Below, piece by piece: positions 10,605 to 15,022 of a DNA stretch of 64,000 nucleotides. The notes beneath the pieces are model-generated. The model did no database searches, had not been told where the DNA came from, and saw nothing but the letters and a program-made list of their open reading frames with translations. Every line of letters starts with the position of its first letter. Within the stretch, counting starts at the first letter, position 1. The position numbers and the translations under genes were made by a program. The DNA comes from Vallitaleaceae bacterium (lineage in GTDB: Bacteria > Bacillota > Clostridia > Lachnospirales > Vallitaleaceae). Where the stretch lies: positions 62,001 through 126,000 of the forward strand of contig JANQFZ010000026.1 in the NCBI GenBank assembly GCA_028277605.1. Direction: 5' to 3'.

Positions 10605-12359
10605 TTATAGACTTAAAGCATTTACACCTTCTGCGAGATAACCTTCGTATTGTTCATTAAATGTTGTATAATATCGCCCCTTAAGGCTTAATAGTTCACT
10701 ATGTGTGCCTCTTTCAACTATTCTTCCGTTTTCTAGAATAATGATTTCATCTGCATTTTTTACAGCTGATATTCTATGGGCAACGATGATCTTTGATACG
10801 TGAGTCAGCTTATCAATTTTCTTTTGAATATCATGTTCTGTCTCCATATCAAGGGCTGACGTCGCATCATCTAGTATAAGAATACTTGCTTCTTTAGCAA
10901 AAGCTCGTGATATACTTATTCTCTGTTTTTGACCTCCTGAGAGACCTATTCCTCTTTCTCCAATAACTGTACTATATTTTTCACTCAGTTTATCAATAAA
11001 GTCATGAGCACAGGCACTCTTAGCAGAATGTATCATGCTATCATCACAAATAGAGTCTTTAGAACCAAATTTTATGTTCTCTTCTATCGTATCAGAGAAT
11101 AAGAAAACATCCTGCATAACAAAAGCTATTTCTTTTCTAAGGCATTTCAAATCAATGTTTTTTATCTCATGACCATCAATTGTAATTTCACCAGTTGTCA
11201 CATCATAAAACCTTAAAAGCAGATTAATAATAGAAGTTTTACCTGTTCCAGTCGCTCCCATAATTGCAAGGGTTTTACCGGGATTGAGTTTAAAGCTTAC
11301 ATTTCTTAAAACCTGAGTTTCATTTAAGGTTAAGGAAACATTCTTAAATTCAACCTCCCCCTTACAATTAACTAAATCGATTGGATGCTCTACATTTTTT
11401 ATTTCTGGTTCTTCGCTAAAGATAGTATCGATTTTTTTCAATGCTGCTCTAGCTTCAGCTATAATATTACTCAACCATCCCATCAATCGCATGGGCCATA
11501 TAACCATATAGATATAGCCTGAGAATCTAATAAGCATACCAATACTTAAGTCTTCACCAACTACAAGCGCTCCGCCAAAAGTGATGACCAATACTGGTAA
11601 AAGGTTAGTAATAAACTCAAGTATGGGAAAATACTTTGAAGTAACCTTAGCCTGCTGCATATTGAGGTCATAGTACTTCTTGTTATGACTTAAGAATTTA
11701 CTAACTTCATATTTTTCTCTTGCAAAGGCTTTAACCAATCTCACTCCTGCTATATTCTCTTGAGCCGTTGTATTAAGGACAGCATTTTGCTCGGAAATAG
11801 ACTCATAAATCTTTCCAATTTTTTTCTCTAGTTGCAAGGCTACATAGGATAATATTGGCAGGGTTATAAGTGCTAATATTGAAAGCTTAACACTGATGGT
11901 TAACATTAACACAGTTGCAACGATAAGATAAATCGCTTGTTCAATAGCTAGCATACCACCAAAACTAATACCCACCCATATGCTATCAGCATCTTCTTTA
12001 ATTCTGGCCATTAATTCTCCTGTGTTTTTTCTTTCAAAAAAACCGAAGGATAAAGACTGTATATGATCAAACATTTCTTGTCTAAGACGACAGACAATTC
12101 TAACACCAGCAGTATCAAATAATATTTCTTTTGCATAACCAAAGATCGCTCTACCTAGTGTTATGCCTAAGAGGGCAACAATAAGGCTTTGAAAGATTTC
12201 TAATTTTCCACCTTCAACAACTTCATCAATGATCCTACCTGTTACTATAGGATTAAACATATCTAATCCTATACTTATCAGCATAGATAAGGCTGAAAAA
12301 AAGTACAAATACCAGTATTTTGAAATGTACTTTAATATTCTTTTCATGACACTAATCAT
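10605..12359 (-). CDS. Heterodimeric ABC exporter, degenerate-site half (BmrC/TM287-like)
   Basis: A half-transporter of about 584 residues: six membrane helices, then an ATPase domain with Walker A GATGTGKTS, a full LSGGQ signature and Walker B ILILDDATSALD. Asp replaces the catalytic Glu, the mark of the non-hydrolysing site in heterodimeric exporters. The switch His is kept (VAHRISAV). The start at 12359 is preferred because GGAG lies eight bases upstream; an ATG at 12383 is also in frame. It is the first gene of a two-gene operon, 43 bases before its partner. The leader at 12400-12858 carries two short ORFs and alternative hairpins, which suggests control by attenuation. Confidence 0.85.
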   Translation of the reverse strand: MISVMKRILKYISKYWYLYFFSALSMLISIGLDMFNPIVTGRIIDEVVEGGKLEIFQSLIVALLGITLGRAIFGYAKEILFDTAGVRIVCRLRQEMFDHIQSLSFGFFERKNTGELMARIKEDADSIWVGISFGGMLAIEQAIYLIVATVLMLTISVKLSILALITLPILSYVALQLEKKIGKIYESISEQNAVLNTTAQENIAGVRLVKAFAREKYEVSKFLSHNKKYYDLNMQQAKVTSKYFPILEFITNLLPVLVITFGGALVVGEDLSIGMLIRFSGYIYMVIWPMRLMGWLSNIIAEARAALKKIDTIFSEEPEIKNVEHPIDLVNCKGEVEFKNVSLTLNETQVLRNVSFKLNPGKTLAIMGATGTGKTSIINLLLRFYDVTTGEITIDGHEIKNIDLKCLRKEIAFVMQDVFLFSDTIEENIKFGSKDSICDDSMIHSAKSACAHDFIDKLSEKYSTVIGERGIGLSGGQKQRISISRAFAKEASILILDDATSALDMETEHDIQKKIDKLTHVSKIIVAHRISAVKNADEIIILENGRIVERGTHSELLSLKGRYYTTFNEQYEGYLAEGVNALSL

Positions 12360-12399
12360 TCCTTTCTCTCCATATTGGAACATTTTTACCTATTATTCT

Positions 12400-12441
12400 T
12401 TAAAAATCCTTCACGCCTATTAAGGTATTCCTATTTAACAT
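12400..12441 (-). CDS. Thirteen-residue leader ORF before the ABC exporter
   Basis: ATG at 12441 opens a 13-codon frame, MLNRNTLIGVKDF, ending in TAA. A consensus AAGGAGG lies eight bases upstream, stronger than the exporter's own site. It ends 41 bases before the exporter start and lies downstream of the terminator at 12536-12567. It may be a translated leader or couple translation into the exporter. It is too short for homology; the ribosome site is the only support. Confidence 0.45.
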   Translation of the reverse strand: MLNRNTLIGVKDF

Positions 12442-12535
12442 TTTTAGTCCCTCCTTAAATAATAATTTAATATGCTTAGAAGCTAGTTAATATGCAATCC
12501 TGTGTTTCTTATCCATAAAAATATATGATTAATGC

Positions 12536-12567
12536 AAAAAAGCCATGGATTCAACCATGGCTTTTTT
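12536..12567 (-). terminator. Terminator in the exporter leader (arms 3 and 4)
   Basis: On the minus strand AAAAAAGCCATGG (12567-12555) pairs perfectly over 13 bases with CCATGGCTTTTTT (12548-12536) around TTGAAT, ending in six T residues. It lies after the 43-codon ORF and before the exporter. Its first arm can also pair with the second arm of the upstream hairpin. Confidence 0.85.
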
Positions 12568-12603
12568 GTAGACTTATACTCTCTTATGTATAATAATTAA
12601 TAA

Positions 12604-12627
12604 AGCCATGGTATATAACCCATGGCT
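12604..12627 (-). promoter_or_regulatory. Leader hairpin that can compete with the terminator (arms 1 and 2)
   Basis: On the minus strand AGCCATGG (12627-12620) pairs with CCATGGCT (12611-12604). It begins 12 bases after the stop codon of the 43-codon ORF. Arm 2 plus its following TT can pair over ten bases with arm 3 of the terminator (AAAGCCATGG), so the two folds exclude each other, as in translation-controlled attenuators. Confidence 0.6.
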
Positions 12628-12639
12628 CAATAGATATCA

Positions 12640-12771
12640 TTAATATTTCATATACCGATCCTTGAGAGGCAGGGTTATTATTTTAAATTGTTTATTACTG
12701 GTTCTATTCATAATTCCATTAAAACTACGACGCATAAATGATATCATTCCTATTCTGTTATTGCTTGTCAT
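12640..12771 (-). CDS. 43-residue leader peptide or small protein, unknown
   Basis: ATG at 12771, with AAGGAGG eight bases upstream, opens a 43-codon frame ending in TAA at 12640. The product begins MTSNNRIGMISFMRRSFNGI and ends KDRYMKY; it is basic, with no membrane segment. It has its own strong promoter (12830-12858) and is followed 12 bases later by two hairpins and then by the exporter genes. In B. subtilis the exporter bmrCD is preceded by a small ORF, bmrB, whose translation controls a terminator; the layout here is the same in kind. I infer a leader peptide, but a small protein with its own job is possible. No sequence family was recognised. Confidence 0.65.
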   Translation of the reverse strand: MTSNNRIGMISFMRRSFNGIMNRTSNKQFKIITLPLKDRYMKY

Positions 12772-12829
12772 AGTGCCTACCTCCTTTTATATATTTTCTA
12801 TATGACATATTTTATTCTAAGCTTCTATC

Positions 12830-12858
12830 ATTATGACAGTATAGTCATAATATGTCAA
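12830..12858 (-). promoter_or_regulatory. Consensus promoter with built-in palindromic operator
   Basis: On the minus strand TTGACA (12858-12853), a 17-base spacer and CATAAT (12835-12830) form a strong sigma-A promoter for the 43-codon ORF. The spacer and -10 are filled by a perfect inverted repeat, ATTATGAC / GTCATAAT (12830-12851, six-base centre). This placement fits a repressor site that would block RNA polymerase. The regulator is not identified. Confidence 0.75.
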
Positions 12859-14575: not shown

Positions 14576-15022
14576 CTAAGAGGAATAAGCCTCTTTCTGC
14601 TCCTTGGTATTAGCCTTTTCAATGCCTTTTCTTTCAATAATCATGACTTCAACCTCATTGGCTTCGTTAGAAACATAGCTATTAATATCTTTTTTCAATA
14701 ATTTATATAATTTACTCTTCATAGTTTGTCCTAAGACCACTTTGGTTATGTCTAATTCGTTTATAAAACTAACAATTCTAGTGGCAACATCCTTATCACT
14801 TACAAAATGTACTTCTCCACCAAGCTCCTTCCCAAGTTCAAAAAGCTCTTCAAGTAATAAAACAGCATTTTCCTTTTCAAAAATACTCATAGCTTTTTCA
14901 ACATGCAGGATATGAAGCTCTGCATTCAATGAGGAAGCAATTTTGGCACCTTTCTTTATTAACCTTTTTGAATTTTGTTGTATGGTTATGCATACTAATA
15001 CTTTTTCTTTTATGTTACCCAA
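14576..15022 (-). CDS. Universal stress protein (UspA) domain protein
   Basis: A 148-residue single-domain protein of the UspA type: first strand VLVCITIQQNSKRLIKKGAKIA, second strand ELHILHVEK, and a core VLGQTMKSKLYKLL where ATP-binding members have G-x2-G-x9-G(S/T). That motif is incomplete here, so nucleotide binding is doubtful. It resembles the Usp-like sensor domain of KdpD in its helix-strand order. The start is TTG at 15022, eight bases after AGGGGG. A perfect inverted repeat of the TetR-operator kind lies 27 bases upstream of the start and probably controls it. Confidence 0.72.
   Translation of the reverse strand: MGNIKEKVLVCITIQQNSKRLIKKGAKIASSLNAELHILHVEKAMSIFEKENAVLLLEELFELGKELGGEVHFVSDKDVATRIVSFINELDITKVVLGQTMKSKLYKLLKKDINSYVSNEANEVEVMIIERKGIEKANTKEQKEAYSS

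Follow-up and report, generated by a model that had tools for sequence, protein, structure and literature searches.

The window, a stretch of 64,000 nucleotides from a Vallitaleaceae bacterium, encodes two ABC exporter subunits on its minus strand. Both the first subunit, P0002 (positions 10605–12347), and the second, P0003 (8783–10561), combine an ABC_membrane and an ABC_tran domain (PF00664 and PF00005), and their Walker B motifs read LDDATSALD and LDEATSS, respectively. Such an LDD/LDE contrast is typical of heterodimeric exporters in which one site is degenerate. P0002 matched YheI (1.7e-90) and TM_0288 (2.7e-93), while P0003 matched YheH (7.8e-109) and TM_0288 (1.8e-120). Judged by its sequence, the exporter is of the heterodimeric class and is no closer to BmrCD (YheI/YheH) than to TM287/288. 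Translation of P0002 probably starts at the ATG at 12347 rather than at 12383, since relatives align at the former position. Of the 58 other genomes searched, about 24 contained likely orthologues of the exporter (46–66% identity), and likely orthologues at 44–56% identity were found in numerous named Lachnospiraceae and in a small number of other Clostridia. This distribution places the genome close to the Lachnospiraceae.

Upstream of these genes, the sequence bears out the order given in a preliminary description of this DNA, namely a strong promoter, an ORF of 43 codons, a hairpin (T1), a terminator (T2) and the exporter, all on the minus strand. The promoter (12830–12858), of the sigma-A type by its sequence, reads TTGACA-17-CATAAT with a TG ahead of the -10 element and matches the consensus at 11 of 12 positions; TTGACA-type promoters also stand ahead of most of the leaders examined in relatives. 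The promoter is followed by arm A (AGGAGGTAGG, 12776–12785), the Shine-Dalgarno (SD) sequence of the leader ORF, which extends from the ATG at 12771 to the TAA at 12640 (12640–12771) and whose 3′ end contains arm B (ATAACCCTGCCTC, 12666–12678). Hairpin T1 (12603–12628, 9 bp) starts 11 nt past the stop codon. Its 5′ side and loop constitute arm C (GAGCCATGGGTTAT, 12615–12628) and its 3′ side arm D (CCATGGCTTT, 12602–12611). Terminator T2, formed by arms E and F (12536–12567), starts 72 nt past the stop; the six T residues described earlier were confirmed, but its stem comprises 14 bp and not 13. The U tract of T1 is weak in the window, and a good T run follows T1 in most relatives. Arms A and B were assigned from the sequence and from covariation, arm C from the own-partner test and the fold states, arm D from the sequence, and the ORF from the conservation of its frame, its peptide being without conservation.

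Arm B can be divided into an anti-SD segment, CCTGCCTC, complementary to the SD sequence GAGGTAGG of arm A, and the segment ATAACCC, complementary to GGGTTAT in the 5′ arm and loop of T1. Arm B is thus complementary to both A and C, and the two pairings, A:B and B:C, overlap on B. Arm C has in turn two predicted partners, B in the ON state and D in the OFF state. Folding of the 131-nt leader region yielded −41.8 kcal/mol (z = −6.2 relative to shuffled sequences, none of 200 being as good). On both strands of the 64-kb window, the combination of a strong SD, an ORF of 15–60 codons and a terminator within 140 nt occurs at this one place only.

The same order recurs upstream of the orthologues, which were sampled nearly throughout from the Lachnospiraceae: an SD, an ORF of 20–50 codons (median 30), and one or two U-tailed hairpins. 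Arm B pairs with arm A in all 53 leaders compared at orthologous loci, and B:C is found in most of them. The SD/anti-SD pairs include GAGGTAGG with CCTACCTC or CCTGCCTC, GAGGTAAA with TTTACCTC, GAGGCAGA with TCTGCCTC, and GAGGTAGT with ACTACCTC; a diverged version of the leader (L014) has GGGGGTAGG with CCCTACCT. Arm B faces the 5′ arm of T1 through TATACCC with GGGTATA in L009 and, with one mismatch in each case, through ATTCAGtCTGC with GCAGtCTGAAT in L069 and CATAGCCTGC with GCAGTCTATG in L048, whereas L018, L024, L042, and L057 show a weak B:C pairing or none. Carriers of the leader include Anaerocolumna aminovalerica (L047) and Lacrimispora algidixylanolytica (L045). The leader is present further upstream in L008 and L012, and a clear leader was not found within 950 nt in L017, L020–L022, L063, and L073.

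The anti-SD is located at a median of 20 nt upstream of the end of the stop codon, and the distance from the SD to B ranges from 54 to 129 nt. All three codon frames are used to read the anti-SD (36, 10, and 7 of the 53 leaders), which indicates that it is conserved as RNA and not as peptide. All 43 non-redundant leaders keep frame 0 open between the start codon and the anti-SD, as against 2 of 43 for frame +1 and 4 of 43 for frame +2. An anti-SD placed in any frame, together with an open frame 0, argues for RNA-level selection inside a translated ORF.

To determine how specifically the arms match each other, each arm was paired with its own partner or with foreign partners from other leaders. 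Own A:B partners reached a mean of −13.8 kcal/mol versus −10.9 kcal/mol for foreign ones (z = −9.6, 43 non-redundant leaders), and own B:C partners −11.3 versus −7.3 kcal/mol (z = −10.6, 41 leaders), with none of 20,000 permutations attaining the own-partner score in either case. A:B still gave z = −9.0 once the invariant GAG/CTC core was left out, and in the control pairing B:D own partners were no better than foreign ones (z = +2.2). Since permutations leave phylogeny unmodelled, the divergent subsets matter here: z was −5.4 for A:B and −7.7 for B:C in the 20 most divergent leaders, −3.4 and −5.5 in the 11 most divergent, and power was lost at 4. At one position of A:B, the pairs T:A (24 leaders), T:G (10), C:G (8), and A:T (1) occur, so that 43 of 43 are paired when 36.6 would be expected; at a second, G:C (20) and A:T (17) are found along with T:G, and 40 of 43 are paired (29.9 expected). 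The 5′ arm or loop of T1 supplies the best partner of B within the next 200 nt in 35 of the 51 leaders examined, compared with an expected 7.3. Compared with codon shuffles, which are conservative because codons forming the anti-SD are retained, the A:B complement was significant (p < 0.05) in 43 of 53 leaders. By these comparisons, the wiring of the arms through A:B and B:C is well supported, and A and B are the conserved core of the leader. These two decisive arms, the SD and the 3′ end of the ORF, had been missed in the preliminary description, which recognized four of the six arms (those of T1 and T2).

A pattern combining the SD with its matching anti-SD gave 19 matches in 295 genomes of the order versus 2 for the reversed pattern, and the examined matches with a start codon after the SD all precede this type of exporter. 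Searches with two other SD classes returned exporter leaders or chance matches. Candidates for a leader ahead of other genes, sought with patterns in 295 and 146 genomes, proved to be this exporter again or chance matches, the latter lying in long ORFs (L130, L152, L153) or in repeats (G046). The leader was absent from the paralogous ABC exporter loci tested, and a small ORF with a terminator was not found before the other ABC loci or operons of the same genome. Rfam 15 gave no match at gathering score across the window; sub-threshold hits at the leader (SpF25, RsaF, and miRNA families) were set aside as stem-loop look-alikes, some of them on the opposite strand. In open-licence papers and Rfam, we found no description of an SD acting as an anti-antiterminator arm with the end of the ORF as its partner.

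The leader peptide, P0001, had no Pfam or NCBIfam match, and outside its own locus a homology search gave no clear relative. No run of codons for one amino acid is common to the leader set, in which Asn is the commonest residue (12.5%). A peptide-specific stall motif was discarded because the leader peptides are not conserved.

The effect of ribosome position was analyzed by folding the transcript of the window at the decision point, with C made and D not yet. This approach replaced thermodynamic folding of the full leader, since the complete leader folds without a switch, T2 being formed in every state. At the decision point, A:B reached 0.90 and B:C 0.10 without a ribosome. With a ribosome on codons 1–3, B:C attained 0.99, while a ribosome on codons 32–38, over B, reduced it to 0.00; a mid-ORF ribosome gave a mixture of A:B and B:C. 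The value of B:C without a ribosome varies with the transcript start in the window, from 0.10 to 0.80 with a shorter 5′ end. When a ribosome was placed on codon 1, B:C exceeded 0.5 in 34 of 41 leaders; when it was placed on the anti-SD, no leader exceeded this value. Without a ribosome, A:B exceeded 0.5 in 32 of the 41 and B:C in 14, the window being one of these 14 at its shorter 5′ end (0.80). At equilibrium, complete T1 forms in every ribosome state, as does T2 at full length (0.88–0.96). The completed terminators thus win in every state, and switching would have to be kinetic. When E is made and F is not, D:E is favored (0.91) even without a ribosome, and control of T2 in the window would therefore need T1 to be formed first.

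Based on these pairings and fold states, we propose that the leader acts as a ribosome-mediated transcription attenuator, with overlapping alternative helices, that senses early-arrested ribosomes, and we assign this reading a probability of roughly 0.7. First, in the absence of a ribosome on the leader, A:B would form and occupy B, and the terminators would form (OFF). Secondly, a ribosome that translates the whole ORF would cover B, and the terminators would form again (OFF); after its departure, A:B would close the ORF's own SD. Thirdly, a ribosome on the SD that is halted within the first few codons, or is waiting there in a queue, would hide A and expose B, which could then pair with C ahead of the synthesis of D, so that T1 would fail. 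With T1 lost, D would go to E and the polymerase would enter the exporter genes (ON). The stretch between the SD and B would act as a spacer, and the stage of arrest being sensed would be at, or shortly past, initiation, and not at the end of the ORF. Such a gate, which would open solely when a ribosome has begun translation without moving on, should suit inhibitors of initiation or early elongation and should need no particular peptide sequence. We infer this ribosome logic from folding and consider it well motivated.

Judged by the sequence comparisons, the attenuator is real and conserved, and it is probably undescribed. We further consider it fairly likely that it represents an undescribed attenuator family of the Lachnospiraceae and their near relatives, which would gate a drug exporter by two-sided ribosome logic. 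In such a family, the SD would be the first arm and the 3′ end of the ORF the second, any peptide would serve, and any inhibitor freezing early ribosomes would be sensed. The Lachnospiraceae are dominant gut anaerobes and, to our knowledge, little is known about how their drug efflux is switched on. If our reading is right, they would possess a conserved sensor of early ribosome arrest that does not depend on the peptide, which would account for which antibiotics induce the exporter. A leader ORF could then be strongly selected while its peptide drifts freely, and the use of the SD as a switch arm would offer a compact design principle to look for in other systems.

The preliminary description had proposed a different course for the same leader: a ribosome stalled at the ORF's end would cover C, its first arm, leaving D free to pair with E, and T2 would be undone. 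The 10-base pairing between its second and third arms is present, arm D (CCATGGCTTT, 12602–12611) and arm E (AAAGCCATGG, 12564–12555) forming 10 perfect base pairs, and across 16 leaders with two hairpins own D:E partners beat foreign ones, a score matched by 14 of 20,000 permutations. The position of T1 in the window, just 11 nt beyond the stop, also favors this model. However, although conservation of the arms in relatives was checked and is present, D:E is conserved in the CCATGG clade only, and some relatives have a single hairpin. The usual toeprint distance is 16 nt from the first base of the P site. For a ribosome whose P site holds the last codon, this distance would place the edge near 12630, still two bases from T1 (12628), and a ribosome at the stop codon would consequently not reach the arm it was supposed to cover. 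The same 16 nt have been applied to vmlR (PMC9226507). Moreover, T1 is located 6–84 nt past the stop in relatives and 44–84 nt past it in about half of them, which indicates that covering from the end of the ORF is not a general mechanism. The model also leaves the conserved A:B and B:C pairings unexplained, and we regard it as unlikely. In our attenuator model, ribosomes that have come close to the ORF end would in general sit over B, which corresponds to the OFF state. What stands of the earlier proposal is a translation-controlled attenuator before a heterodimeric-type exporter; the stall at the end of the ORF does not.

Another explanation would be that the helix between SD and anti-SD mainly limits translation of the ORF itself, ahead of ordinary tandem terminators and without any drug switch. 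In favor of such a self-shut-off, the A:B pairing is strong and universal, and T1 and T2 are good terminators in many relatives. It nevertheless provides no reason for the covariation of B:C (z = −10.6), nor for the confinement of the leader to this exporter, and appears quite unlikely.

Main control of the exporter by a repressor is very unlikely. Its putative site would be the promoter palindrome ATTATGAC-N6-GTCATAAT over the -10 element, a perfect 8+8 inverted repeat (12830–12851) with no other copy in the genome within one mismatch, and other ABC pairs in this genome sit behind regulator-like genes (MarR-like by inspection). Yet chance repeats are expected (0.97 at three mismatches or fewer in the window), no such palindrome was noticed in the promoters of relatives, and a repressor would supplement the conserved leader, not replace it. 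Finally, it is scarcely credible that a small protein made from the leader ORF is what functions here, with the RNA features being incidental. Although frame 0 is open in 43 of 43 leaders and the SD is strong, relatives show no conservation of the peptide, P0001 is without a clear relative or family match, and the sole conserved stretch is read in three frames.

The early-arrest attenuator proposed here shares several traits with known leaders. As in the window, the bmrB leader of bmrCD in Bacillus subtilis carries a short ORF that is translated and lies upstream of a multidrug ABC exporter of the heterodimeric class (PMC4191407). Anti-antiterminator, antiterminator, and terminator helices were predicted for it, with a strong terminator and a less stable antiterminator (PMC4191407), and the same three helix types, a strong terminator and a weaker antiterminator are predicted here. 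Kinetic switching has been proposed for bmrB, where the antiterminator is likewise the less stable form (PMC4191407). The likeness to bmrB put forward earlier thus holds for the leader ORF and the class of exporter. It does not extend to the terminator, located inside the coding sequence in bmrB (PMC4191407) whereas both terminators follow the stop here, nor to the exporter, which is not closest to BmrCD. In contrast to bmrB, the anti-antiterminator here would be the SD paired with the 3′ end of the ORF.

In vmlR from B. subtilis (PMC9226507) and cplR from Clostridioides difficile (PMC10201436), a ribosome stalled at the start of the uORF blocks an upstream hairpin, which in vmlR is the anti-antiterminator (PMC9226507), and leads to the antiterminator. 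Lincomycin induces both, and retapamulin also induces cplR (PMC9226507, PMC10201436). Our proposal resembles them in that a start-stalled ribosome would let the antiterminator form, but their uORFs have three codons compared with 20–50 here, and their target is an ABC-F factor instead of an exporter. In addition, a bulge of the anti-antiterminator contains the vmlR uORF, whose SD is single-stranded (PMC9226507), whereas here the SD itself would be an anti-antiterminator arm. Rli53/lmo0919 and Rli59/lmo1652 from Listeria have, as here, a small ORF in an antibiotic-responsive terminator/antiterminator leader, and Rli59 precedes an ABC transporter, like the leader studied here; the Rli53 ORF has three residues, in contrast to the 20–50 codons of these leader ORFs (PMC8079631). 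Overlapping anti-antiterminator, antiterminator, and terminator helices are common to vmlR, Rli53, and cplR, and here A:B, B:C, and C:D share strands in the same manner.

By analogy, the leader most likely works like the bmrB, vmlR, cplR, and Rli53 attenuators while standing outside the bmrB and vmlR types, from which the position of the terminators, the identity of the exporter, and the length of the ORF separate it. In the trp operon leader of Escherichia coli, the position of the ribosome decides between helices 1:2 and 3:4 on the one hand and 2:3 on the other. The logic of alternative helices is alike in both leaders, but the one described here has no regulatory codon run, its first arm is the SD, and its second arm lies inside the end of the ORF.

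The promoter of the leader, the predicted ribosome-mediated attenuator on the minus strand, carries a perfect 8+8 inverted repeat (ATTATGAC-N6-GTCATAAT, window 12830-12851) spanning the promoter spacer and the -10 element. A search of the genome under study revealed no further copies at ≤1 mismatch. This repeat could possibly act as a repressor operator, although repeats of that size can also arise by chance.

Regarding the exporter itself, ATG 12347 (MKRILKY), rather than the upstream ATG 12383, is probably the start codon; relatives align there. Between the terminator T2 (12567-12536) and the exporter sits a second mini-ORF, MLNRNTLIGVKDF (12441-12400), preceded by the SD sequence AAGGAGG; a short ORF resembling it was found at one compared locus, L019, and no general conservation was observed among relatives. 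In genus g8 (L008, L010, and L012), the leader precedes the exporter by about 640-740 nt, and an ORF of about 72 codons (MKQ.IQSYCKTEG...) occupies the interval. In the window, a gene that looks universal-stress-protein-like on inspection of its sequence (14576-15022) lies upstream of the exporter, as does, judged by eye, such a gene in some relatives (L014, L015, and L044).

Elsewhere in the genome under study, genes of about 142 codons encoding proteins that appear MarR-like by eye precede other ABC exporter genes (L142 and L143, contigs C25 and C6), which are not accompanied there by a leader attenuator. On contig C47 (L147), a short peptide with a double-glycine leader, MKELNNEQLMKINGGLSFWKKLKLAISVIF, is encoded ahead of what looks like a gene for a peptidase-domain ABC exporter; this may be a bacteriocin locus.
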